Source: Fuscovulum blasticum DSM 2131 (GTDB lineage: Bacteria; Pseudomonadota; Alphaproteobacteria; Rhodobacterales; Rhodobacteraceae). From it: a DNA stretch of 64,000 bases. The position numbers and the translations under genes are program-made. This document shows positions 14,294 through 31,661 of this stretch, piece after piece. The DNA lies in contig NZ_PZKE01000001.1 in NCBI RefSeq assembly GCF_003034965.1, forward strand, positions 248,001-312,000. Direction: 5' to 3'. The first letter of the stretch is position 1. Each line of letters starts with the position of its first letter. The notes below the pieces were generated by a model. The model saw nothing but the letters and a program-made list of their open reading frames with translations, made no database searches and was not told where the DNA came from.

Positions 14294-14473
14294 ATGAAGA
14301 AACTCGCGCTCGCCGCTGTGCTCTCGGCCGCTGCTACGTCGTCGTTCGCTGGCGGCATGGTTGAGCCGGTGATGGAACCGGAAGTCGTCAAGGCTCAGAC
14401 CTCGTCGTCGGCCGGCGGCATCATCATCCCGCTGCTGCTGCTCGTTCTGGTGGCTGCTGCTGCTTCGAACTGA
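14294..14473 (+). CDS. 59-residue exported hydrophobic peptide (YjbE-like)
   Basis: Short gene with GGAGG seven bases before the ATG. The product has a signal peptide ending ATSSFA, an acidic/valine part with PEVVKAQTSSSAGG, and a C-terminal hydrophobic segment (PLLLLVLVAAAA). The layout and the pieces FAGG, PEVV, Q-x-SSS-x-G match the three tandem small proteins at 25.3-26.2 kb, so I take it as a remote paralogue. Nine of its thirteen alanine codons are GCT, as in the porin gene and unlike most genes here, which suggests strong expression. It ends at a strong intrinsic terminator. Function unknown; it sits convergent with hemH. Confidence 0.8.
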   Translation: MKKLALAAVLSAAATSSFAGGMVEPVMEPEVVKAQTSSSAGGIIIPLLLLVLVAAAASN

Positions 14474-18979: not shown

Positions 18980-19819
18980 ATGCCGGCACAGACAGACAGC
19001 CTGACCGTGGTCATCACCGGCGCCAACGGGCGGGTGGCCGGGCTGTTGCGGCGGGTGTGGTCAGATCGCCCGCCGCGCGGCCTGTCGGTTCTGTGGTCGG
19101 CCCGGTGCCCGGGGCATGGCCTTCATTGGGATCTGCTGTCCGCCCCGGCCCCGGGCCTGCCACGGGGTGCGGTGATCCTGCATCTCGCCGGCGTGGTGCG
19201 TGGGTCTGGTATGGCCGCCAATCCCCGTATGATCCCGGCCCTGATGTCCGCCGCCCATGCCAGCGGTGCGGCAGCGGTGGTTCTGGCTTCAACCGTGGCT
19301 GTCTATGCCCCGGGGCCATTGCCTGCGGCAGAAGACCAGACACCCGCCCCGGTTTCCGCCTATGGAGTATCAAAACTTGAGGCCGAGGAAGCGGCCTTTG
19401 CTGCCTCTGGCGGTTTGCCGGTCACGGCGTTGCGAATCGGCAATGTTCTGGGGGCGGATGCGCTGTTCGGGCTGGGTGGAACGGCCCCCCTGCGCCTTGA
19501 CCCGGTGCCGGGGCAGGTCGATGGACCGCTGCGGTCCTGGATCGGGCCGCAGACGCTGGCGCTTTGCCTGCCGGCCTTGCTGCGGTTGGCGGCGGCGGGG
19601 CAGTTGCCGCCCCTGCTGAACCTTGCGCAACACCCGCCCTTGCCGATGGCCGCGCTGCTGCGCGCCTCCGGGCGTGTCTGGGATTGGGGCGCGCCCAACC
19701 CGGCCGTCGTGGCGGCGCATGTGCTGAACACCGAACGGCTGGCGCGATGGGTCAGGTTGCCACCGGCCACGCCCGCAGGGCTGCTGGCCGAACTGTCCGG
19801 GCAGGAGGTTGCCGCATGA
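18980..19819 (+). CDS. NAD-dependent epimerase/dehydratase family protein
   Basis: 279-aa extended-SDR protein. The nucleotide-binding loop is VVITGANGRVAG near the N-terminus; the catalytic YxxxK is YGVSKLEAEEAA, preceded by ASTVAVY (the serine/threonine position). Likely an NDP-sugar epimerase or reductase making a building block for the coupled glycosyltransferase. The ATG at 18980 is chosen over TTG 18923, because the extra 19 residues precede the Rossmann start and the TTG lies in the inverted repeat. The stop overlaps the next gene (ATGA). Confidence 0.82.
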   Translation: MPAQTDSLTVVITGANGRVAGLLRRVWSDRPPRGLSVLWSARCPGHGLHWDLLSAPAPGLPRGAVILHLAGVVRGSGMAANPRMIPALMSAAHASGAAAVVLASTVAVYAPGPLPAAEDQTPAPVSAYGVSKLEAEEAAFAASGGLPVTALRIGNVLGADALFGLGGTAPLRLDPVPGQVDGPLRSWIGPQTLALCLPALLRLAAAGQLPPLLNLAQHPPLPMAALLRASGRVWDWGAPNPAVVAAHVLNTERLARWVRLPPATPAGLLAELSGQEVAA

Positions 19820-22380
19820 CCCCGGCAAAGCGGGCCTTCGACCTGTCGCTTGCCGTGGTGCTGGCGGTGCTGCTGGCCGTGCCCGGCCTGCTGATCGCGG
19901 CCTGGCTGTGGGCGCGCGGGGGCGGGCCGGTGTTCCATGTTGCCGAGCGTATGGCGGCCCCCGACCGCCCCTTCCGGCTGTGGAAGTTCCGCACGATGAT
20001 GCCCGCCGGCGTTGCCGATCAGGGGGTTTCGGGCGATGACAAGGCGGCCCGCATCACGCCGGAAGGGCGGTTCCTGCGCCGCGCCCGGCTGGATGAACTG
20101 CCGCAACTCTGGAACATCCTGCGCGGCGACATGAGCTTTGTGGGGCCGCGCCCGCCCCTGCGCGCCTATGTCGAGCGGTTCCCCGATCTTTACGCGGCAG
20201 TCTTGCGCAGCCGCCCGGGCCTGACCGGGCTGGCAACGCTGGTCTTTCACCGGCACGAAGGGCGGATTCTGGCCCGCTGCCGCACCGCGGCCGAGACCGA
20301 TGCCGTTTATGCCCGTCGCTGCGTTCCCCGAAAGGCGCGGCTGGATCTGCTTTACCAGCGCAGGGCCTCGGTCTGGCTGGATGTCTATATCCTGGTGCAA
20401 ACGGGGCTGCGGGTGATGGGCCTTGCAAGGGGTGGCGTTCGCCGGCAAGGCGCCAGGATCGGGCGGATGCCGCGGCATCTGATGCTTGTCCTGTCGCGCC
20501 GGATGTCACGCCGGGCCAAGCAACTGGTGCTGTGGGGCATCGACATCATTTCGGCACCCGTCGCGCTGTATCTGGCGGGCGCGGTTGTGCACGCGGCGCC
20601 CTGGCCTGACCCGGCCTTGTTGCGCCATGGCGAAATCTTCGGGCTGATCGCGCTGGTTACCGCCGGCATCTCGCTGGCGCTTGGCCTGCCACGGATCAAG
20701 CTGCAAACCTATGAAAGCCTTGGCACCACAGGGCTGCTGCCCATGGCTGCGCTGGTCACATTGGCGCTGGCCATCATGACCCGCGGGCTGGATTTGCAGT
20801 TTCCGCTGGCCGGGCTGGTGGCATTTTCGCTGATCCTGCATCTGGGGGCGCTGGCTGCCCGGTTGTCGCTGCTGCTGCTGCTGCGCTGGGCGCTGCGGTC
20901 GGGGCAGCCGCAGACGCGGGTTCTGATCTATGGCGCAGGGCCAACCGGGCAACAACTGGCCTCGGCCCTGCGATCCCATGCCGGGATTGCCGTCTATGGT
21001 TTCGTCGATGATGATCCTTCGCTGGCGCGGCAGCGGCTGGGCGGGTTGCCGATCCACGCGCCGGACCGGCTTGCCCATGTGGTGCGCAGCTATGACATCG
21101 CGCGGGTGATCCTGGCGATGCCGGATCTTTCGGCACCGAAACGGGCGCAACTGGGCCGCCGCCTGCGGACCCTGGGCCTTGAGGTGCAGGTTCTGCCCTC
21201 ATTCGCGCAACTGGTGGGAACCGAGCGGCTGGTTGACACGCTGACGGCACTGCAGCCGGATCGTTTTCTTGGCCGCGACCCCGTGGTGAAAGGTTTGCCC
21301 GACCCGGGCGAAAGCTATGGCTGGCGCAATGTGCTTGTCACCGGGGCGGGCGGGTCGATCGGGGCGGAACTGTGCCGGCAGGTGCTGGCCTGCCGCCCGC
21401 GGCGGCTGGTGCTGTTCGATCTGTCCGAAGCCGCGCTGTATCAGATCGACCGCGAGCTTTCGGATCTGAACGCCGACGGCTGGACCGAGGTGGTGCCGGT
21501 GCTGGGCTCGGTCACCGATCCGGTCACGGTAGAGCGGATATTGCGCCAGCATGAGGTTGAGATCGTTCTGCACGCGGCGGCCTACAAGCATGTTCCGCTG
21601 GTTGAGGCGAACCCGCTGCCCGGGCTGGTGAACAATGTCACCGGCACCCGCGTTCTGGCCACGGCCTGCCGACAGGCGGGCGTGGGCCGCTTCATCCTGA
21701 TTTCCACCGACAAGGCCGTGCGACCGGCGAATGTCATGGGGGCGTCGAAGCGGCTGGCGGAAATGGTGGTGCAGGATCTGGCCCGCCGCAGCCAGACCAC
21801 CCGCTTTGCCATCGTGCGCTTTGGCAATGTTCTGGGGTCATCCGGGTCGGTCATTCCGCTGTTCAAGGACCAGATCGCCCGGGGCGGCCCTGTTACCCTG
21901 ACAGATGAGGATGTCACCCGCTATTTCATGACGATCGAGGAAGCCTGCCGCCTGGTCCTGCTGGCCGGTGCGCTGGATGCCGCTGCGGAGACGGCGGATG
22001 CCGATGTCTTCGTGCTGGACATGGGGCGCCCTGTCCGCATCCGCGACCTGGCCGAACATCTGATCCAGGCGGCCGGCTATACGCTGCGCGACGACGTGAA
22101 CCCGGCTGGCGATATCGAGATTCGCGTGATCGGTCTGCGTCCGGGCGAAAAGCTGCATGAAGAGTTGCTGATCGGCGACGGGCTGTTGCCCACCCCCCAT
22201 CCGCGCATCCTTCGGGCGCGGGAGGCTGCGCCTGAACCTGTGGCTGTGGCCGCGATGCTGCAGGAAATCGGGCGTTGTGCCGTGACCGGCAGTCCCGAGG
22301 CTGCACGGCGGCTTGCGCTTGGGGTCGTCCATGCCCATGATGCCGGAAAAGGCCGGGTGAACGCGGCCGGCGGCATATGA
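19816..22380 (+). CDS. Fusion: monotopic phosphoglycosyltransferase + NDP-sugar 4,6-dehydratase
   Basis: 854-aa single frame. Residues 1-205 are a PglC/WcaJ-type sugar transferase: reentrant hydrophobic helix (about 9-32), WKFRTM (56-61), catalytic D93-E94 in RLDELPQLWN, and SFVGPRPPL. It would transfer a sugar phosphate to undecaprenyl phosphate. From about residue 218 a PglF/WbpM/CapD-type dehydratase begins: four hydrophobic segments (about 240-360), a Rossmann-like domain (YGAGPTGQQ, 372-380), then the catalytic SDR domain with GAGGSIG (510-516), STDKAVRP (630-637) and MGASK with M641 and K645. Met in place of the usual SDR tyrosine is normal for this dehydratase group. Both halves look intact. 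Normally these are two proteins; the junction near residues 205-218 has no stop codon. An internal start at 20467 could also yield the dehydratase alone. Confidence 0.9.
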   Translation: MTPAKRAFDLSLAVVLAVLLAVPGLLIAAWLWARGGGPVFHVAERMAAPDRPFRLWKFRTMMPAGVADQGVSGDDKAARITPEGRFLRRARLDELPQLWNILRGDMSFVGPRPPLRAYVERFPDLYAAVLRSRPGLTGLATLVFHRHEGRILARCRTAAETDAVYARRCVPRKARLDLLYQRRASVWLDVYILVQTGLRVMGLARGGVRRQGARIGRMPRHLMLVLSRRMSRRAKQLVLWGIDIISAPVALYLAGAVVHAAPWPDPALLRHGEIFGLIALVTAGISLALGLPRIKLQTYESLGTTGLLPMAALVTLALAIMTRGLDLQFPLAGLVAFSLILHLGALAARLSLLLLLRWALRSGQPQTRVLIYGAGPTGQQLASALRSHAGIAVYGFVDDDPSLARQRLGGLPIHAPDRLAHVVRSYDIARVILAMPDLSAPKRAQLGRRLRTLGLEVQVLPSFAQLVGTERLVDTLTALQPDRFLGRDPVVKGLPDPGESYGWRNVLVTGAGGSIGAELCRQVLACRPRRLVLFDLSEAALYQIDRELSDLNADGWTEVVPVLGSVTDPVTVERILRQHEVEIVLHAAAYKHVPLVEANPLPGLVNNVTGTRVLATACRQAGVGRFILISTDKAVRPANVMGASKRLAEMVVQDLARRSQTTRFAIVRFGNVLGSSGSVIPLFKDQIARGGPVTLTDEDVTRYFMTIEEACRLVLLAGALDAAAETADADVFVLDMGRPVRIRDLAEHLIQAAGYTLRDDVNPAGDIEIRVIGLRPGEKLHEELLIGDGLLPTPHPRILRAREAAPEPVAVAAMLQEIGRCAVTGSPEAARRLALGVVHAHDAGKGRVNAAGGI

Positions 22381-22438: not shown

Positions 22439-24553
22439 TTGGCGCGACTGACCCAGCGGCAATGGCGGATGGCGGCCTGCCTTTCGGGGCTGGCCTTGGC
22501 AACCGCTTTTCCGGCGCAGGCCGAGATGAAGCCAACGCTCAGTTTCCGCGGCGTTCCCGGTGTTATCGACATGCCGTCCGGCGAAAGCCAGCCCGACGGC
22601 ACCTTTTCGATGAGCGCCTCGCATTTCGGCGGAATTCGCCGGGGCGCCCTCAGCTTTCAGATCTCGTCCCGCGTTGCCGCCACCTATCGGTTCGAAAGGG
22701 TGGGCGACTGGAACGCGCTGTTTCCCGGCGATTCCTCGACCTACGAAGGTAAGAGCTTTGACCTGCGGTTCACCCTGCTTGAGGAAACCGACAGCCTGCC
22801 GTCTGTGACCCTTGGCCTGCAGGACGTGTTCAACACCGGCAAGGACGGTGCGGAATATATCGCGGCAACCAAGACCTTTGGCGACCGGCTGAAGGTCACC
22901 GCCGGCGTGGGCTGGGGGCGGCTGGGGTCATACGGGTCGATGGGGTCACCCTTCGGCGCGCGCCCGGTCAGCGATTTCGGTCTGGGCGGCAAGCCCGAAC
23001 CCGAAAACTGGTTCGCCGGCCCGGCCGCCGCCTTTGCCGGCGTGGAATGGAAGATCAACGACGCCTGGACGGTCAAGGCCGAGTATTCGTCGGATGCCTA
23101 TGCCGAATACGCCGGAACCCGGGATGTGTTCGAACGGGACAGCCCGCTGAACTTTGGGGTCGAATACAGCCGTGGCCGGTTCTTCAAGGCCGGCCTCTAT
23201 TCGCTGTACGGGTCCGAGATCGGGCTTTCCTTCCAGCTTGTGCTGGACCCCAAGACCGCCATCGCCCCCGGCGGCCGGGCCCCGGTGGCGATTGGCAAGC
23301 GCCCGTCGCGCTCCGCTGACCCCGAGGCCTATGACGGTGGCTGGGTTACCCAGCCCGACGCCGGAACCGTGTTGCAGGCCAACCTGGCCAAACGGCTGGC
23401 GGTTGATGGCATCCGGGTCGAGGGGTTGGCCTATAGCCCCGGCAAGGCGCAGTTGCGCATCCGGTCAACCCGGGCCGAACCCGAAGCGCAGGTCATCGGC
23501 CGGGTCGCCCGTGCGATGAGCCATGTGATGCCGGCCTCGGTCGAGGTGTTCGAGATCGTTCCGGTGGCGCAAGGTATTGGTGTGTCAAAGATCACCGTGC
23601 GCCGGTCTGATCTTGAGGCGCTTGAACATATCGCCGGCAACCATGCCGCGATCCGCGACCGCGTGGTGATCAGCGATGCTGGCCCCGTTCCCGAAGGCCT
23701 GGTCTTCCCCGAGGATCGCTATCCCAAGTTCACCTGGAGCCTGAAGCCCGCGTTGCGGCTGAGTTCCTCGCTCAAGGGCGATGCGGGTCTCCGGTTGCGC
23801 GGCACCTATGAGATTCAGCCGGGCCTGATCCTTGGCGGATCGGTTTATCAGACGTTGACTGGCCGGCCTGCGGCTGACCCGGCAACGCCGGGCCCGCTGC
23901 CGCCCGTGCGCAGCCGCAGCGCCGAATACCTGGAGAACGGCGAACCCGCGCTCGAATCGCTGACGCTGGCCTGGTATGCCCGGCCGGCCGAGAATTTCTA
24001 TTCGCGCGTCACCGTTGGCTATCTTGAAACCATGCACGCCGGCATTTCTGCCGAACTGCTGTGGAAGCCGGTCGATAGCCGGCTGGCGCTGGGCGTCGAG
24101 GTGAACCACACCAAGCAGCGGGATACCGATGGCGGGTTCGGCTTTGGTGAGTTCGACTATGAGGTCACCACCGGCCATGTGTCGGCTTATTACGATTTCG
24201 GGCGCGGCTATTCCGGCCAGCTTGACGTCGGCAAGTACCTGGCCGGCGATGTGGGCGCGACCCTGTCGCTGGACCGTGAGTTTGCCAACGGCTGGCGGTT
24301 TGGCGCCTTTGCCACGCTGACCGACGCCTCGGATGAGGAATTCGGTCCGGGCTCGTTTGACAAGGGCATCCGCGTCACCATCCCGCTTGACTGGCTGATG
24401 GGCCGCAAGGCCGGAAACAGCGTCAGCCGCACCTTCCGGCCCTATTCCAGCGATGGTGGCGCGCGGCTGAACGTCTCGGGGCGGCTGTATGAGACGATTC
24501 GCGACTATCAGGGCAATGAGCTGGACGACCAATGGGGAAGCTTCTGGCGATGA
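22439..24553 (+). CDS. yjbH: YjbH-family outer-membrane exopolysaccharide protein
   Basis: 704-aa exported protein of the YjbH family, predicted to be a large beta-barrel-like outer-membrane component for exopolysaccharide secretion. A signal peptide ends PAQA near residue 28; then KPTLSFRGVPGVIDMPSGESQPDG, the family's N-terminal hallmark, and TFGDRLKVTAGVGWGRLG. The C-terminus has many alternating aromatic strands (YSGQLDVGKYLAGDVGATL). The start is a TTG at 22439 six bases after AGGGGGG; no better-placed ATG exists before the signal peptide. Stop overlaps yjbF (ATGA). Confidence 0.88.
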   Translation: MARLTQRQWRMAACLSGLALATAFPAQAEMKPTLSFRGVPGVIDMPSGESQPDGTFSMSASHFGGIRRGALSFQISSRVAATYRFERVGDWNALFPGDSSTYEGKSFDLRFTLLEETDSLPSVTLGLQDVFNTGKDGAEYIAATKTFGDRLKVTAGVGWGRLGSYGSMGSPFGARPVSDFGLGGKPEPENWFAGPAAAFAGVEWKINDAWTVKAEYSSDAYAEYAGTRDVFERDSPLNFGVEYSRGRFFKAGLYSLYGSEIGLSFQLVLDPKTAIAPGGRAPVAIGKRPSRSADPEAYDGGWVTQPDAGTVLQANLAKRLAVDGIRVEGLAYSPGKAQLRIRSTRAEPEAQVIGRVARAMSHVMPASVEVFEIVPVAQGIGVSKITVRRSDLEALEHIAGNHAAIRDRVVISDAGPVPEGLVFPEDRYPKFTWSLKPALRLSSSLKGDAGLRLRGTYEIQPGLILGGSVYQTLTGRPAADPATPGPLPPVRSRSAEYLENGEPALESLTLAWYARPAENFYSRVTVGYLETMHAGISAELLWKPVDSRLALGVEVNHTKQRDTDGGFGFGEFDYEVTTGHVSAYYDFGRGYSGQLDVGKYLAGDVGATLSLDREFANGWRFGAFATLTDASDEEFGPGSFDKGIRVTIPLDWLMGRKAGNSVSRTFRPYSSDGGARLNVSGRLYETIRDYQGNELDDQWGSFWR

Positions 24554-25188
24554 GGCGCGCATTTCCCCTTGCCGTTCTGCTGGCGGCCGGCCTTGTTCTT
24601 GCCGGCTGCGGCGGCAAGTCGCCGCTGACCGCCGTGATGGGCAGCGCGCAGAAGATAATCGGTGGCAAAAAGCAGGCCGCGCCGGGCCGCAGCACGCTGA
24701 CCGCCGCCGAGATTGCCGCCTATGACAAGCCGCTGATGCGGGTGCAGATCGCCGCGCTGGGGCTGGACAGTTATCTGACGCTGCGCGACCGCGATGGCGA
24801 TGTGGCAACCTGGCAGGCACCCACCGGGGCCACCTTCAGCCTCCGCGACGGGGTGCTGATCGAAACGCGCGGTCTCAGCCTTGATCTGATGTCGTCAGCC
24901 GCCCCTTCCCCGGCGCAACTGGCGCGGACGGGGGCGCCCTACAGCCGGACCTTCTTCGTCAGCGGTTTTGAAAACGATGTAGATCAGCGGTCTTACACAT
25001 GCAGCACAGAGGCTGTGCCGGATGAGGCGCCCGCTAGGCGGCACCTTCGCCATCTGCGCGAAACCTGCCAGAGATCCGGTGGAAAGCTGACATCGGATTA
25101 CTGGATTGATGGCCGAACGGTCCGGGCGTCACGGCAATGGGCCGGTCCGGGCGCCGGCTTTGCGGTGTTTGAAACGATCAAGGAGTAG
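24550..25188 (+). CDS. yjbF: YjbF-family lipoprotein
   Basis: 212-aa lipoprotein, lipobox LAGC with C20. The body carries WQAPTGATFSLRDGVLIETRGLSLDLMSS, characteristic of the YjbF (GfcB-like) family, outer-membrane lipoproteins associated with group 4 capsule or exopolysaccharide secretion. It is coupled to yjbH by a 4-base overlap. E. coli yjbEFGH also has a YjbG; no YjbG homologue is seen here. Confidence 0.85.
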   Translation: MRRAFPLAVLLAAGLVLAGCGGKSPLTAVMGSAQKIIGGKKQAAPGRSTLTAAEIAAYDKPLMRVQIAALGLDSYLTLRDRDGDVATWQAPTGATFSLRDGVLIETRGLSLDLMSSAAPSPAQLARTGAPYSRTFFVSGFENDVDQRSYTCSTEAVPDEAPARRHLRHLRETCQRSGGKLTSDYWIDGRTVRASRQWAGPGAGFAVFETIKE

Positions 25189-25333
25189 TATTCCGCAAGT
25201 AGAATATGTTGGGAACTGTGTGGAATTGAGCACAGACCCCCGCATAAAAATGCCCCGGCTTTTTTGACCGTCTACACGATGCTATCAAAAGATATAACTT
25301 TTCTATGAACACATCACTTTTGAGGAGACCAGA

Positions 25334-25558
25334 ATGAACAAGCTTGTCGCGTCCATTGCAGCCCTCTCGCTGAGCGCATCCGTCGCCTTTGCCGGTGGCC
25401 CGGTTGTCGTGGTCGAAGAAGGCCAGCCCGAGGTGGTTCAACAACAGTCCTCGTCCAGCGTCGGCGCCCTGCCGATCCTGATCGGCCTTGTCCTGCTGTG
25501 CGCCGTCGCCTGCGGTGGTGGCAGTGACGACCCGGAGCCGCAGCTCGAGGAACAATAA
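25334..25558 (+). CDS. YjbE-like small exported protein, copy 1
   Basis: 74 aa: signal peptide to about residue 20 (ASVAFA), then GGPVVVVEEGQPEVVQQQ, a serine stretch SSSSVG, a hydrophobic segment (PILIGLVLLCAVA) and a tail CGGGSDDPEPQLEEQ. GAGGAG lies just upstream. The arrangement recalls E. coli YjbE, a small exported product of the yjb exopolysaccharide operon with a Ser-rich middle and GGG tail. This is from memory and by position, so homology is inference. The upstream 145 bases are AT-rich (TATAAC at 25293) and likely carry its own promoter. Confidence 0.85.
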   Translation: MNKLVASIAALSLSASVAFAGGPVVVVEEGQPEVVQQQSSSSVGALPILIGLVLLCAVACGGGSDDPEPQLEEQ

Positions 25559-25566
25559 CATTTCTG

Positions 25567-25610
25567 CAGATTGGCGGATCGGTCGTGAGACAAAATTGAC
25601 CGCCAATCTG
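25567..25610. repeat. 11-bp perfect inverted repeat between YjbE-like copies 1 and 2
   Basis: CAGATTGGCGG (25567-25577) and CCGCCAATCTG (25600-25610) with a 22-base loop and no T-run. Probably an intercistronic hairpin that shields the upstream mRNA or partly ends transcription. Confidence 0.7.
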
Positions 25611-25661
25611 GTTCAGAACGGTTTCGACAAGAGTGCCCTTACTTCCAACCGGAGAAATGCC

Positions 25662-25883
25662 ATGAAGAAGCTTGTTGCTGCCATCACTGCGCTTTCCCTT
25701 GGCGCCTCGGCCGCCTTTGCGGGTGGTCCTGTCGTTGTCGTTGAAGAGCCCCCGCCCGAGGTTGTTCAACAACAGTCCTCATCCAGCGTCGGCTTTCTGC
25801 CGATCCTGATCGGGGTTGTCCTGCTCTGCGCCGTCGCCTGCGGTGGTGGCAGTGACGACCCGGAACCGCAGCCTGCGGGCTAA
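25662..25883 (+). CDS. YjbE-like small exported protein, copy 2
   Basis: 73 aa with a signal peptide (ASAAFA) and the same body as copy 1, differing mainly by PPPEVV for GQPEVV, GFLPILIGVV in the hydrophobic part, and a shorter tail ending PEPQPAG. CGGAG lies about nine bases upstream of the ATG at 25662. The near-identity of the central 40 residues, at DNA level as well, shows a recent tandem duplication. Confidence 0.87.
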   Translation: MKKLVAAITALSLGASAAFAGGPVVVVEEPPPEVVQQQSSSSVGFLPILIGVVLLCAVACGGGSDDPEPQPAG

Positions 25884-25900
25884 GACGATTTTGCGGGGGT

Positions 25901-25924
25901 GGGCGGCAGTTCGGCTTGCCGCCC
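25901..25924. repeat. 8-bp inverted repeat between YjbE-like copies 2 and 3
   Basis: GGGCGGCA (25901-25908) and TGCCGCCC (25917-25924) with an 8-base loop, extended by GGT/AACC through a bulge. No T-run. Same position as the hairpin after copy 1 but unrelated in sequence. Confidence 0.65.
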
Positions 25925-25961
25925 AACCTGACGCGCCCTGAATTCCATGCGGAGAATTGCC

Positions 25962-26192
25962 ATGAAGAAGATTGTCGCCACTCTTGCGGCCTTGTCCCTC
26001 AGCGCTTCGGTTGCCTTTGCCGGCGGCCCTGTTGTGGTGGTTGAGGAAGGCCAGCCCGAGGTCGTTCAACAACAATCCTCGTCCAGCGTTGGCGCCCTAC
26101 CGATTCTGATCGGCCTTGTCCTGCTCTGTGCCGTTGCCTGCGGCGGCGGCAGCGACGATCCGCAGCGGGGGGAAGAACCCGCGCTGGACTGA
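25962..26192 (+). CDS. YjbE-like small exported protein, copy 3
   Basis: 76 aa, signal peptide MKKIVATLAALSLSASVAFA, then the same GGPVVVVEEGQPEVVQQQ, SSSSVGALPILIGLVLL and CGGGSDDP block as copy 1, with a different tail (QRGEEPALD). GGAGA lies six bases before the ATG. Last gene before the strong terminator at 26228. Divergence is confined to the signal peptide and the last ten residues, so the middle is what is conserved. Confidence 0.87.
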   Translation: MKKIVATLAALSLSASVAFAGGPVVVVEEGQPEVVQQQSSSSVGALPILIGLVLLCAVACGGGSDDPQRGEEPALD

Positions 26193-26227
26193 CATCACCT
26201 CCCAGGAGAACACGCTCAGTCGTGATG

Positions 26228-26262
26228 GCCGGGTCCGCGTTGGCGGGCCCGGCATATTTTTT
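26228..26262 (+). terminator. Intrinsic terminator of the yjb locus
   Basis: 11-bp stem GCCGGGTCCGC (26228-26238) / GCGGGCCCGGC (26243-26253) with one G-U pair and a GTTG loop, followed by ATATTTTTT. Confidence 0.88.
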
Positions 26263-26289
26263 GGAACGTCCCGCGCTGATCGACGGCCG

Positions 26290-29200
26290 TCAGTAGTCCT
26301 TCTCGAAATACACCCCGACACCGCTGTCGCCGTCTGAATCGACGCGGCCCTTGATGGTGACACCGGGTTTGACATCAAGGTTCAGGTTGATACGGCTGTT
26401 GCCGTCCTGGCCCAGATCAATTTCCGTGTAGACGTTCTTGGAAATGTACTTGCCGGCCTTGACCGAGACGCTGCCGCTGTCATCGGTGCCGACATCCAGA
26501 TCGTCGAAGCCGAAACTCTTGCGCAGTTTCCCGACCAGCCCTTCGCCGCCCCGCCCGGCCAGAACGGCCACCGCATTGGCAAGCTGTGCCGCCTGGAAGG
26601 CCGACAGCGTATCAAGCCCGCGCCCGAACAACAGCCAGGACAACACCTCTTCCTGTGGCAGTTCGGGGCTTGAGGAGAAGGTGACCACAGGTTCGTTCGC
26701 CGGCCCTTCGATCGAGACGGTGCTGGTGACACCATCGGTTTCGTTCGAGGCGGAAACTTTCAGGAAGGGAATGAAGTCGCCCTCCATCGCAAGCGAGGCT
26801 TCGGTCAGCACCAGACGTTTGCCCAGAATATCAAGCCGGCCACGGATTAGGTCCAGCCCGCCCGAGGGGACGATGGCGCGCAGGCTGCCGCCAAGGCGCA
26901 GGGTGCCACCAAGTTCGGCATCCAGTCCGCGGCCACGCAGGAAGATGCGGCTGGGGGCGGAAATGATCAGGTCCAGCGCCCAGTCGGGCATCCCGCCGCC
27001 CGAGGCGCTGCTTCCGCCACCCGACCCTGCGGCGCCAACACCCGCGCGGCTACGGGTTGCACGCACGGGCGCCGGGTCGTTCACATGGCGCACCGCCTCA
27101 AGCTCGGCCGCGGTGGCAAAGCCGGTCGAGGGCACGCGCAGCTCGGTCTCGCCGACGTTCACTTCGCCGGCAAGCCGGGCTCGGCCCATCAGCGGGCCGT
27201 TCAGCGTCAGCCCGCCGGAAACGATGGTCTCGTAAAGCTCGGGGTCGCGCAGGCGCAGGCCGTCGATCTGCACCGTCAGGTCGCCCGGATAGGGCGAGGT
27301 CAGCCCGACGGGACCATCGACGCGCAGCCGCCCACCGCGCGGGCCTTCGCCGGTGGCGGTCAGCCGCACCCGGCCATTGCCCAGATCGGCGGCCACCGCC
27401 AGACGGTTCAGCGACAGGCCGCGCGCCGGAATGGCAAGTTTGCCGCCCGACAGCGTGGCCCGGCCTGACAGCGCCGACAGGCCCCAGGCCCCGTTCAGCC
27501 GCAGGTCATAGGACAGCGCGCCGTCTACGCTGACCGGGTCGATGAAGCCATTGGCCACGCCGGCCTGCGCCGTGCCCTGAAGTGTCAGGTCTGCCCTTGC
27601 GCCTGCGGTTCCGGCCACACGGGTATTGATGCCGCCGGGGCCGGTGACGCGAAGGTCCACCACCTGATCGGTGCCGCGCGGTTCAAGGCTGCCGGTTACC
27701 GAGACGGGGCCGGGGAACTGCGCCACAAGCAGGGCAAGATCGCGCAGGCGACCATCCACCCGCAGACGCGGACCGTTGCCTTCGGATCTGGCGGTCAGGG
27801 TCAGGCTTTGGCCGGCCAGATCAAGGTTGTCCAGGCGCGGGGCACCATCGACCAGCCGCGCTGCGGCGGTCAGCCGCGTTTCGCCCGCCAGCACCCGGTC
27901 AACCTCGGGCTGGCCGATGCGCAGGCCGCGGGCATCGCCGGTCAGAGTCAGGGCGGCGTTGCTGGCATCTCCGGCAAAGGTTCCTTCGGCCGACAGGCTG
28001 CCCCCCAGACTGGGGCGAATGTCGGCCAGAGAGCCAATATCGACCCGGCCTTTCAGCGTGCTTGTCTGCGACGACAATTCGCCCGAGGCCGAGGCCTTGA
28101 CCGAGGCGGCACCGAAATCCATCGCCCGCAGATGGGTGCCGGTTTCATCGCGCAGGATGGATGCGGTCAGCGTGGCATCGCCCGCCATGAGGCGGTCAGC
28201 CTCGGGTTGGCCAACCTTCAGCCCGCGCGTCGTGGCCGCGATCACCGCATCGAAGGCGCCACTCAGGGCGCTGGCCTGCCCCTCAAGCTGCAGCGTGCCA
28301 GACCCGCCCAACGGCCGCCCGGCCAGGCCCGAGAGCCGTCCGAAATCGGCCAGCGTCGCCTTGACCGTGCCGCTGGTCCGCAGGCCTTCGGATAGGCCTT
28401 CCATCTGCAAGGCGCCGGTCAGGTCATAGCCTTCGCCGGTAACCGAAAGCTGCGGCAGCGACAGGGCATCCGCGCCTTCGACCCAGGAAAACGCCAGCTT
28501 GCCGCCCAGGTTGGCGCCCATGGCCTGCGCCACCGCCGGATCGCGCGGGGCGGCGCCGGTCAGCCGGAAATCCAGCGTGCCGTCAACGCCGCCCTTGCCG
28601 GCGGTCCGCTCGATCCGGCCTTCGCCGGAAAGCGTGGCCTGGGTGGCGGAAAAGTCGGGCTGATCCAGCCCGTCCACGGTGATCTGCGCTGTCCAGAGGT
28701 TGCCGGTGGCGGCATCGAACTTCAGCGAAAGATCCGCCGCAGCCACGCGGGTGACCCCCTCACCCGGCAGCGGCAGGGCAACGGGGCTGCGGTCTGGCAG
28801 GCCCAGTTGGCCGGTCAGATCAAAGGCCTGCGGCAAGCCGTCATCGGCCAGCGCAAGGCTGCCGCGCAGGTCCAGCGCCCGCGCTGTCAGGTGCAACTGG
28901 TCCAGCAGCAGGCGGCCGGTCGGGAAGGTGGTGCCCGAAACGTCCAGCGCCACGCGGTCGCCCAGAAACTCGGCATATTCCGGCACGAACAGCGGCGCGG
29001 GGTTGCCCTGAAGCTGCGCCGCGAAATCGCGCGCCCCATCTTCGGTGGCCTTGATCGTGATCGGCCCCGACAGGCGTGGAGCCCCGTCACTTTCCAGCCG
29101 GAAACTGGCGTTGAAATCGTCCAGCGTGCCGGTGCCATCCAGCGTCAGCCCGACGGCAGGTTCCCCCGGCAACCCCAGCAGTTTCGCGGCGATGCCGCCC

Positions 29201-29814
29201 TTGTCCTCAACCGCGGCCAGCGCCACGTCCAGTTGCCCGGTTGCGTTGGCATAGCCTGCGGTCAGCGTCACCTTGCCATCGGGGCCGTCATCGGTGCGCT
29301 CGATGGTAACCGAGATGTCGCCTTCACCCCCGGCCAGTTCGACCGAGGCGCTGACCACGCCCTCGACCGGCTCGCCCAGAATATCGGGGCCCAGCACCAG
29401 TTCACGCGCCGCGATTTCGCCCACCTTCACCGAAACCGGCAATTCGGGCAGGCTGAACCCCTTGGCTTCGGGTGACGGCAGGCTTTCCTCGTCAGACGCG
29501 GGCCAGCGTTGCAGCACGATCTTCTCGGCGGTCAGCGCGTTCACCTCGACCCGGCCCGCCAGCAGCGAAGACCGGCTCCAGTCCAGCACCACGCCGTCAA
29601 GCGTGATCCAGATGCCCTTGTCATCTGAAATCTCGATCCGCTGCACGGTGGCCTGCGACGACAACGCCCCCGCAAAGCCGGTGATCGTCACCTTGCGGCC
29701 GGCAGAGGACAGGTTGTCCTCAAGAAAGGCGGTCAGATAGCCGCGATCATCCTCTTGCGCGGCGGCGATGCCGGCCGAGGTGATCAGGATGCAGGAAAGG
29801 AATACGCCGCGCAT
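26290..29814 (-). CDS. tamB: Translocation and assembly module TamB (inner-membrane component)
   Basis: 1174-aa AsmA-like protein with an N-terminal signal/anchor (VFLSCILITSAGIAAA), a long repetitive beta-rich body (AsmA-like repeats such as LTLTGDARGLRIGQPEVDRVLAGETRLTA, two near copies of which lie around residues 530-660), and the C-terminal DUF490/TamB domain ending in VGVYFEKDY. It spans the periplasm with TamA and works in outer-membrane protein insertion or lipid transport. The start overlaps the tamA stop (ATGA). Length is typical. Confidence 0.93.
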   Translation of the reverse strand: MRGVFLSCILITSAGIAAAQEDDRGYLTAFLEDNLSSAGRKVTITGFAGALSSQATVQRIEISDDKGIWITLDGVVLDWSRSSLLAGRVEVNALTAEKIVLQRWPASDEESLPSPEAKGFSLPELPVSVKVGEIAARELVLGPDILGEPVEGVVSASVELAGGEGDISVTIERTDDGPDGKVTLTAGYANATGQLDVALAAVEDKGGIAAKLLGLPGEPAVGLTLDGTGTLDDFNASFRLESDGAPRLSGPITIKATEDGARDFAAQLQGNPAPLFVPEYAEFLGDRVALDVSGTTFPTGRLLLDQLHLTARALDLRGSLALADDGLPQAFDLTGQLGLPDRSPVALPLPGEGVTRVAAADLSLKFDAATGNLWTAQITVDGLDQPDFSATQATLSGEGRIERTAGKGGVDGTLDFRLTGAAPRDPAVAQAMGANLGGKLAFSWVEGADALSLPQLSVTGEGYDLTGALQMEGLSEGLRTSGTVKATLADFGRLSGLAGRPLGGSGTLQLEGQASALSGAFDAVIAATTRGLKVGQPEADRLMAGDATLTASILRDETGTHLRAMDFGAASVKASASGELSSQTSTLKGRVDIGSLADIRPSLGGSLSAEGTFAGDASNAALTLTGDARGLRIGQPEVDRVLAGETRLTAAARLVDGAPRLDNLDLAGQSLTLTARSEGNGPRLRVDGRLRDLALLVAQFPGPVSVTGSLEPRGTDQVVDLRVTGPGGINTRVAGTAGARADLTLQGTAQAGVANGFIDPVSVDGALSYDLRLNGAWGLSALSGRATLSGGKLAIPARGLSLNRLAVAADLGNGRVRLTATGEGPRGGRLRVDGPVGLTSPYPGDLTVQIDGLRLRDPELYETIVSGGLTLNGPLMGRARLAGEVNVGETELRVPSTGFATAAELEAVRHVNDPAPVRATRSRAGVGAAGSGGGSSASGGGMPDWALDLIISAPSRIFLRGRGLDAELGGTLRLGGSLRAIVPSGGLDLIRGRLDILGKRLVLTEASLAMEGDFIPFLKVSASNETDGVTSTVSIEGPANEPVVTFSSSPELPQEEVLSWLLFGRGLDTLSAFQAAQLANAVAVLAGRGGEGLVGKLRKSFGFDDLDVGTDDSGSVSVKAGKYISKNVYTEIDLGQDGNSRINLNLDVKPGVTIKGRVDSDGDSGVGVYFEKDY

Positions 29815-31661
29815 CAGAACGATTGCCCCAGACCGATATAGACCTGCACCCCGTCGCCCGTGTCGCCCCCCACCGGGGCGGCCACATCCAGCCGGATCGG
29901 GCCGAAGCCGGTTTCATAGCGCAGGCCCAGGCCCGCGCCGGCGTGCCAGTCGCTGAGCACGCCATCGAACCCGTCCACCCCGATCTGCCCGGCATCGACA
30001 AAGCCGACGATGCCGATCTTTTCGGTGATCCGTGTCCGCACTTCGGCAGAGCCGGCCAGCATGTGCGTGCCGCCAATCATGAAGGCCGGGCCGAAGCCGC
30101 GTGTGACGGATACGCCCAGCGAGCGGTAGGGTTGCCCCCGCACCGTGCCGCCGCCGCCCGAGAAGAACAGATCGTCGCGCGGGGTTTCCAGCAGATCGCT
30201 GCCAAGGATCGCACCGCCCTGGAAGCGCACTGCCAGCGTCACCCCGTCCTTGGCGCCAAAGCTGCGGTAGCCGCGGGCGTCGAAGGTCAGCCGCACGCCA
30301 GAGCCGGTGGTCCCAAGGCCCAGGAACGGTTTGACGGTGGCATCAAGGTAAAACCCCTTGTGCGCGTCGGTCGTGTTGTCGCGCCGGTCCCATGTGGCAC
30401 CAAGTGGCAGCGAAAGGTTGCGGAAGCGGAAATCGCCGCCCGGGTCACTGCCATCAATGTATTCATAGGCGACGCCGGCGCGGATCGTCAGGCTGTCCGA
30501 GAAGTAATGCGTCAGCGACAGCCCGGCCTTGGCGAAATCGGCGGCATAGTCCACCTCGTCCAGATGGCCGATCTTGGCCGACAGGCTGGCGGTCGTATCG
30601 GGTGAAAAGGTGGCGGGCCGGTCCAGCGTGAAGCCCAGGGCGTAATCGACACCGCTGACACTGGACCCGATGTTGGTGATTTCGGCGTCGATCTTCAGCC
30701 GTTCGCCACCGCCCAGAAGGTTGCGGTGCAGCCAATAACCGGTCAGCGACAGCCCGTCGATGGTGGCCGCTTCGGTCCCGATGGAATAACGTCGGGGCTT
30801 CTGTTCGGCCACCGCGACATTGATCGGCAACAGCCCGTCAGCCGTCAGCCTTTCGCCCTCGGTCAGCGTGACCGAGGAGAACACGCCCGACCGCCGCAGC
30901 CGTTGCGCGGCGCGGTCCATCTCGGACTGGCTGAACCTTTCGCCCTGGCGCAGACCGGCGATCTTGATGATCCGCTGCACCTCCATCCGCTTGGCGCCGG
31001 TCACGATGGTGGGACCAAAGCGCAGTTCGGGGCCGGGGTCCAGCGCGATGTCGGCCGAAAGGCGGGCATCGGCGTGATTGGCCAGAATGTCCTGCCGTGT
31101 GGTCTTGGCACGGGCGTGGCCGGCTTCGCGCCAGGCCAGGATTGCAGCCCCCGCCGCATCTTCCACCACGCCGGCACGGGCCGGCTGGCCGGGGGCAAAA
31201 CCTTCGGGCAGCTTGGTTCCGCCGGCCAGCGGGGCAATGCGGGTTGTGCTGAAGGCGAATTGCGGGCCCGGGTCCACCCGCACCGTGATGGTGCCGATCC
31301 GCGACGGGGCGTCCAGCGGGGCGATCCCCGCCGCCTCGCGCCCGTCAATCAGGATGTGGATGACGGCCGAATAATGCCCTTCGGCATAAAGCGCGCCCAG
31401 GATGCGGGCATAATCCGACCGGGCCGCCGCGAACATGTCCTGCGCATCGGTGGCACCGTCGGTCTGTTGTGCCAGCAGAAGCGAAGCGCCGCGCACCGCC
31501 TTTTCAACCGCGTCGCCGCCCGAGGAAACGGTGAAGTCCAGCCGGTCCAGGGCAAAGGAGGGCAGGGCGGATGCCAAGGCAAATGCCATGGCAACACCCG
31601 AGACCCGACAACGAAAAGACCTGGCACGCGACACGACAACCCCCGGTAGCTTGGGCACCAA
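29814..31661 (-). CDS. tamA: Translocation and assembly module TamA (Omp85 barrel)
   Basis: 615-aa outer-membrane protein: a long N-terminus with a signal-like hydrophobic stretch ending PSFA, POTRA domains (about residues 60-265, e.g. FGPTIVTGAKRMEVQRI and RLRRSGVFSSVTLTEGERL), then a 16-strand Omp85 barrel with the conserved VRGQPYRSLG region (about residue 510) and an IGLGQSF terminus ending in Phe. The start is uncertain: ATG 31661 gives a long n-region, and an in-frame GTG nine codons later would give a more usual signal peptide. Confidence 0.92.
   Translation of the reverse strand: MVPKLPGVVVSRARSFRCRVSGVAMAFALASALPSFALDRLDFTVSSGGDAVEKAVRGASLLLAQQTDGATDAQDMFAAARSDYARILGALYAEGHYSAVIHILIDGREAAGIAPLDAPSRIGTITVRVDPGPQFAFSTTRIAPLAGGTKLPEGFAPGQPARAGVVEDAAGAAILAWREAGHARAKTTRQDILANHADARLSADIALDPGPELRFGPTIVTGAKRMEVQRIIKIAGLRQGERFSQSEMDRAAQRLRRSGVFSSVTLTEGERLTADGLLPINVAVAEQKPRRYSIGTEAATIDGLSLTGYWLHRNLLGGGERLKIDAEITNIGSSVSGVDYALGFTLDRPATFSPDTTASLSAKIGHLDEVDYAADFAKAGLSLTHYFSDSLTIRAGVAYEYIDGSDPGGDFRFRNLSLPLGATWDRRDNTTDAHKGFYLDATVKPFLGLGTTGSGVRLTFDARGYRSFGAKDGVTLAVRFQGGAILGSDLLETPRDDLFFSGGGGTVRGQPYRSLGVSVTRGFGPAFMIGGTHMLAGSAEVRTRITEKIGIVGFVDAGQIGVDGFDGVLSDWHAGAGLGLRYETGFGPIRLDVAAPVGGDTGDGVQVYIGLGQSF

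Follow-up and report, generated by a model that had tools for sequence, protein, structure and literature searches.

Immediately behind two genes for exopolysaccharide export, the DNA analysed here (the window, 64,000 nucleotides of Fuscovulum blasticum DSM 2131) carries three small genes in a row which encode almost the same protein three times. The question which this locus raises is why such a protein occurs in three copies at this place, and what the three products might do there.

All three genes are located on the forward strand. Copy 1 (25334-25558) encodes 74 amino acids, copy 2 (25662-25883) encodes 73 and copy 3 (25962-26192) encodes 76, or 81 if the alternative start at 25947 is used; the gaps between the copies are 103 and 78 nt. 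This is the tandem of genes for 73-76 residues that the original prediction had described. Compared as units of 230 nt, copies 2 and 3 share 81% and 78% identical nucleotides with copy 1. Each protein consists of a signal-like start, a near-identical middle part, a single hydrophobic helix of short length and a tail rich in acidic residues, and the alignment of the three reads GGPVVVVEE..PEVVQQQSSSSVG.LPILIG.VLLCAVACGGGSDDP, followed by tails which differ. By eye, all three starts show lysine or asparagine near the N-terminus, a hydrophobic run and the transition AFA-GG. From these features we infer that the proteins are exported by the Sec system and that about 54 residues remain after signal cleavage. 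An AlphaFold model, which is weak (mean pLDDT 66, pTM 0.31), contains only two helices, namely residues 3-20 in the signal peptide region and residues 46-60, and a Foldseek search of the PDB with this model yielded no match.

The array lies directly 3' of a yjbH/gfcD-like outer membrane exopolysaccharide export gene (22439-24553, +, 704 amino acids; PF06082, E = 8.3e-175, profile positions 5-657 of 658) and a yjbF/gfcB-like lipoprotein gene (24532-25188, +, 218 amino acids; PF11102, E = 1.2e-15), so that the proposed linkage to yjbH and yjbF is borne out. The two genes are adjacent, as is characteristic of loci of the yjbEFGH/gfcABCD type, and overlap at the end of yjbH; no yjbG/gfcC gene is present between them. 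A small gene beside yjbF for a single-helix protein with predicted export is found here in three copies. Upstream, a single open frame at 19564-22380 (+) combines a bacterial sugar transferase domain (PF02397) with a following Polysacc_synt_2 domain (PF02719); it may join an initiating transferase and a nucleotide-sugar enzyme in one fusion protein, and it probably starts later than at 19564. On the other side, the array faces a convergent TamB gene, behind which an Omp85 gene is located (26290-31661, -).

Small genes at this position are not confined to the window. A definition independent of homology, which asks for a signal-like start, a further hydrophobic stretch and a short tail of hydrophilic character, was applied to 76 yjbHF loci ordered by yjbH score, a few genomes contributing two and loci chosen for a family gene being excluded. 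Beyond yjbF, such an ORF was present within 1 kb in 38 of the 76 loci, with 31 of these ORFs on the same strand; within 1 kb before yjbH, which served as the control side, it was present in three, with one on the same strand. With the chosen loci included, the counts were 45/83 and 3/83. Since the definition was written after inspection of small ORFs beyond yjbF, it leans to that side. Members recognised by the family HMM were present within 1.5 kb in 17 of the 76 score-ordered loci, or 26 of 86 when the chosen loci were added. At three further loci (L107, L122 and L146, with three, two and two ORFs; for L107, two were counted within 1 kb), tandem genes beside yjbF encode a different type of small protein that looks exported and has a threonine-rich tail, and amplification beside yjbF therefore also takes place outside the family of the window.

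The array proteins had been called YjbE-like, and this name does not hold as a statement of homology. The YjbE profile PF11106 matched none of the three proteins at E ≤ 1 and nothing in the own genome at E ≤ 0.1; across 295 genera no match exceeded the cut-off. Profile-profile comparison of the family with YjbE of E. coli gave a probability of 0.9% (reversed 0.15%), and comparison with 12 non-overlapping yjbHF neighbours of other types gave 3.9% (reversed 6.7% and 3.8%). A score of 95% was discarded as circular, because five of the ten sequences involved were already family matches. The yjbHF neighbours themselves reached 26% and 12% with E. coli YjbE (reversed 1-2%), which is weak. The resemblance is one of position and architecture: like YjbE in yjbEFGH, the array proteins are small, are encoded beside yjbF and yjbH, and possess a signal-like start, a short hydrophobic stretch and a GGG/acidic and polar tail. 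In E. coli, however, yjbE is present once and is the first gene in the order E-F-G-H, whereas here three copies come last in the order H-F-E; furthermore, the array proteins have CxxxCG in place of threonine, and their tail is acidic instead of threonine-rich. The positional counterpart in the group 4 capsule operon gfcABCD is GfcA, which according to one description has 101 amino acids with 30% threonine (PMC8592465); by description, it thus differs from the proteins of 73-76 amino acids without a threonine-rich region in the window. A second paper describes both GfcA and GfcD as "entirely uncharacterized" (PMC11494523). Literature searches, which largely covered journals without subscription, yielded no paper on yjbE and Rhodobacter and no mention of Rhodobacteraceae in connection with yjbH or yjbF.

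The three copies are maintained by selection. Over residues 1-67, dS between the copies is 0.61, 0.75 and 1.13 at dN/dS values of 0.13, 0.05 and 0.08; synonymous and nonsynonymous changes are therefore unequal and the selection is purifying, as had been claimed for the mature core. The middle part is indeed almost identical: copies 1 and 3 agree in every amino acid of residues 21-67, although 17 synonymous differences separate their genes there. With dS values of 0.6-1.1 between copies, the array is not a recent amplification. That the ends drift applies only to the tails, which cannot be aligned after SDDP; the signal peptides retain 70-80% amino acid identity at dN/dS of 0.08-0.12. In residues 45-67, copies 1 and 2 differ at only three of about 20 synonymous sites (dS 0.17), and the other two pairs have dS of 0.68 and 0.85, which suggests a local gene conversion tract in copies 1 and 2. 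The same three-copy array follows yjbHF in Rhodobacter sp. Har01, one of eight loci of named relatives that were compared. Within either genome the cores have pN of 0.00-0.08 and pS of 0.32-0.56; between the two genomes pN is 0.14-0.17 and pS 0.43-0.70, the synonymous ranges overlapping. For the signal peptides, pS is 0.56-0.73 within and 0.47-0.73 between genomes. A separate comparison of the signal peptides for positional orthology between window (W) and Har01 (H) gave 0.65 for W1-H1 and 0.65 for W2-H2, but 0.70 for W3-H2. The likeness of the cores within a genome could come from gene conversion, from selection that keeps them matched, or from a combination of the two, between which so few sites do not distinguish.

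Upstream of copy 1, a promoter-like element of the form CTTY-N17-TGSTAW is located at 25259-25285 (+), the sole match in the window. Ten upstream regions were aligned (those of the window, of Har01 and of eight congeners; L010-L012, which are nearly identical to L009, and L015 were left out), and these have ACA, CTT and TG.TA in common. The invariant ACA lies at 25232-25234 (+), starting 27 nt before CTT in the window, and is a possible activator site. The TGNTA part is, as we take it, similar to an extended -10 element; a standard sigma-70 scan of 24500-27500 detected no promoter. In 13 of 14 close genomes the element lies ahead of the first copy, or of the only one, L015 being the exception; it was also found in three of seven more distant yjbHF-linked genomes (L083, L086 and L151), at a shuffle rate of 0 to 0.002 per region. 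No match precedes copies 2 and 3, either in the window or in Har01, and one promoter appears to drive all three copies, as far as can be judged from these patterns.

The element is also almost restricted to the gap behind yjbF. In 100 loci (1.13 Mb, both strands) it occurred ten times, and eight of these matches were on the strand of yjbF within 500 nt after this gene, where 0.19 were expected; two of the eight belong to congeners. In the own genome the form CTTT-N17-TGSTATC occurred once and its reversed control twice, and a longer form including ACA occurred once with no match for the control. A matrix trained on the ten close sequences gave higher scores for 16 loci of other genera with a family gene on the same strand than for 68 loci without one (p = 2.8e-7), a contrast to which AT-richer gaps may contribute in part. 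A wider test of the matrix on 78 held-out regions downstream of yjbF did not reach significance (p = 0.12 and 0.54).

The original prediction further placed a hairpin after each of the first two copies and a strong terminator after the third. The hairpin after copy 1 (25567-25610, +) has a perfect stem of 11 bp and a loop of 22 nt, its stem length being as predicted; the one after copy 2 (25900-25925, +) has nine Watson-Crick pairs and one G-U pair, i.e. a stem of ten pairs rather than the eight given. Neither is followed by a T-run. The terminator after copy 3 (26228-26262, +) was found as described, with an 11-bp stem in the hairpin at 26228-26253 and a T-run behind it. Against 60 dinucleotide shuffles, the p values of the three structures were 0.00, 0.02 and 0.00, and a search of 25100-26400 in Rfam gave no match at E ≤ 1. 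In 18 arrays, a hairpin was located 3' of 24/41 internal copies and 16/18 last copies. Ordinary gene ends, taken from non-overlapping ORFs of at least 200 amino acids, had one in 4 of 37 cases with a same-strand gap of 60-400 nt and in 23 of all 224 tested, so that internal array copies differ from the 37 comparable ends (Fisher 1.3e-5). Single copies of the family carry a hairpin after the stop codon even more often than internal copies, namely in 34 of 39 distinct cases, 17 of them with a T-run. The idea that the hairpins are a device of the arrays was therefore dropped; a hairpin behind the stop codon is characteristic of the gene family as such.

This prevalence among single copies also favours a different explanation, in which the hairpins are merely terminators carried along by each duplicated unit and every copy is transcribed separately, and near-identical hairpins repeated between the copies of two other arrays (L177 and L071) point in the same direction. 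In the window, however, hairpins 1 and 2 lack T-runs, copies 2 and 3 lack the promoter-like element and the gaps are short, and we consider separate units possible but doubtful here. Without a T-run, hairpins 1 and 2 more likely guard the upstream message from 3' decay than terminate transcription. Together with the missing promoters, this favours read-through with protection of the message. Hairpins between genes for small membrane proteins are known from the puf operon of Rhodobacter, to which the array, with hairpins predicted between such genes of one operon, is comparable.

Taken together, we assign a probability of about 0.5 to the reading that the array proteins co-assemble in the cell envelope as accessories of YjbH/YjbF-dependent exopolysaccharide export or anchoring, in the position of YjbE/GfcA. 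One transcript starting at the element before copy 1 would give rise to three Sec-exported proteins, which would take the place that YjbE or GfcA holds in yjbEFGH/gfcABCD. Each mature protein would comprise a short stretch rich in Val/Glu and in Ser, a hydrophobic helix of 15-16 residues ending in CxxxCG, and an acidic tail. Via the shared core, homo- and hetero-oligomers could form in the envelope, and several copies would provide both dosage and different exposed tails on one core. By analogy to the puf operon, hairpins 1 and 2 might shield the upstream messages and lead to graded amounts of copies 1, 2 and 3. The function of the array proteins as a whole is in this respect something we infer. 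Of the prediction that gave rise to the analysis, the linkage to yjbHF, the selection on the core, the wide occurrence of homologues and the repeated amplification persist; YjbE homology, drifting signal peptides and array-specific hairpins do not, and its gene dosage or mixed polymers are still a conjecture. Against the role as an export accessory speaks that in half of the score-ordered yjbHF loci (38/76) the 1 kb beside yjbF is free of such a small ORF, as well as the low share of loci with a member by HMM (17/76), the lack of similarity to E. coli YjbE, the non-significant wider matrix test and the weak structure model.

The distribution of the family raises the alternative that these are general small envelope proteins of Rhodobacteraceae without a specific tie to exopolysaccharides, easily duplicated, the yjbHF-linked copies being one outpost. 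Within the genus, all 13 genomes searched have a match. In all 12 congeners a single copy lies next to yjbF and yjbH; 11 of these 12 have a second, weaker match, nine times at 8-13 kb on the same contig and twice on another contig. The own genome has four members, the fourth, which the original prediction had missed (14294-14473, +, 59 amino acids, without cysteines), being located beside ferrochelatase with a GC-rich hairpin 3' of it (by eye). A fifth profile match (G000:C18:3131-3226) was set aside, as it covers solely the signal peptide end of the model inside a frame of 262 codons. Homologues are by no means limited to near relatives: in a survey of 295 genera with one genome each, a profile of 26 rows matched 254 genera at E ≤ 0.001 and P0001 alone as query 170 at E ≤ 0.01, and the family is thus more widespread than yjbH, which was found in 171. 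The amplification of arrays has also occurred repeatedly, as tandem arrays exist in at least 16 of the 295 genera (counted by hand: 13 read in sequence, that of the window included, and G199, G255 and G292 from listed places). In 11 of the 13 genera read in sequence neither yjbH nor yjbF was present in the stretch examined. Among the named relatives, the loci L176, L177, L178 and L181 have arrays of two to five copies, likewise with no yjbH or yjbF match in the stretch examined. Two genomes, G297 and G203, carry the array on one contig and yjbH on another. Judged by eye from ORF starts, the arrays of L069, L070, L178 and L181 are near a fieF-like or glycerate-dehydrogenase-like gene. With so many members and arrays at other places, the family must have some task besides exopolysaccharide export. 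That it has no specific part in it is nevertheless rather unlikely in view of the enrichment of small ORFs beyond yjbF and of the promoter-like element, which is missing upstream of every copy in 12 other arrays (11 without yjbHF and one on the strand opposite to yjbHF). At L071, L072 and L074, tandem members (two, three and five copies) with terminator-like hairpins were observed beside a ferrochelatase-like gene (by eye).

In a protein tree of 39 rows, which is based on a short alignment and leaves 18 of 36 forks open, the copies of one genome group together for the window (three copies, 98/98), L069 (four, 93/88) and L178 (four, 87/92). The copies of L175, L177, L070 and L176 are not wholly grouped by genome, and the group of L181 is unsupported (44/0).

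Among 96 scorable of 98 distinct family proteins, 37 have the CxxxC pair at the end of the helix, 59 have no cysteine there and none has a single one. Both cysteines are missing within the genus in L013, L015 and L016, and within one array in copy 2 of L070; because the members are related, these cases represent few independent events. Near-identical cores and paired cysteines fit co-assembly but do not prove it. A bolder version, in which the array products can replace one another as subunits of a mixed helical oligomer held together by disulphides, would have matched cores co-assemble, CxxxC on one helix face link neighbours and variable tails display different functions, with the dedicated promoter making the array the missing component of YjbH/YjbF-class exporters; we regard this as a long shot.

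It is likewise improbable that the proteins serve as glycan acceptors, with the Ser-rich stretch glycosylated by the polymer and the protein moved through YjbH as a carrier or anchor. For the Ser/Thr-rich GfcA, modification with O-antigens and direction to GfcD have been speculated in one report (PMC8592465). SSSS precedes the helix in the window copies, and some relatives near yjbHF have threonine-rich tails like YjbE of E. coli, but the serine run is not conserved and is replaced by PRSG or PASS in other arrays. An inverted, lipoprotein-like C-terminal anchor, in which the cysteine before GGGSDD would be lipidated or used by a sorting enzyme, was rejected as very unlikely, because the hydrophobic stretch and the Cys-Gly-rich acidic tail match the NCBIfam model NF058595 ("lipo-invert") only weakly and locally (E 0.0024-0.0079; 16.5-18.2 bits, less than half of the curated cut-off of 37), the same model matches 14/14 control genomes at E ≤ 1 with none over the cut-off, A, L or F precedes the second cysteine across the clade so that the lipobox, the standard motif of lipoproteins, is not kept, and 59/96 proteins have no cysteine there. 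The term "lipo-invert" was not found in the literature searched.

New here are the promoter-like element and the CxxxCG pair, neither of which the original prediction had pointed out, the tandem arrays in at least 16 genera and the hairpin as a habit of the family. The GfcA/YjbE position in group-4-type capsule and YjbEFGH loci is held here by proteins with three experimental handles, namely a nearly unique promoter-like element, an all-or-none cysteine pair and natural variation of copy number among related genomes, which together make the role of this position testable in Rhodobacter-type bacteria.

The tails, finally, are predominantly acidic. Among 93 tails shorter than 40 residues, 72 have a negative net charge, 18 are neutral and three are positive; negative tails fit poorly to a cytoplasmic location and mildly favour full export. 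In arrayed members of two other genera, the C-terminal tail is a Peptidase_S74 domain (chaperone of endosialidase, PF13884), which was detected at L073:3965-4453 (-, E 7.5e-8) and L081:3693-4163 (+, E 6.6e-6) and, by eye only, at L081:4184-4612 (+).
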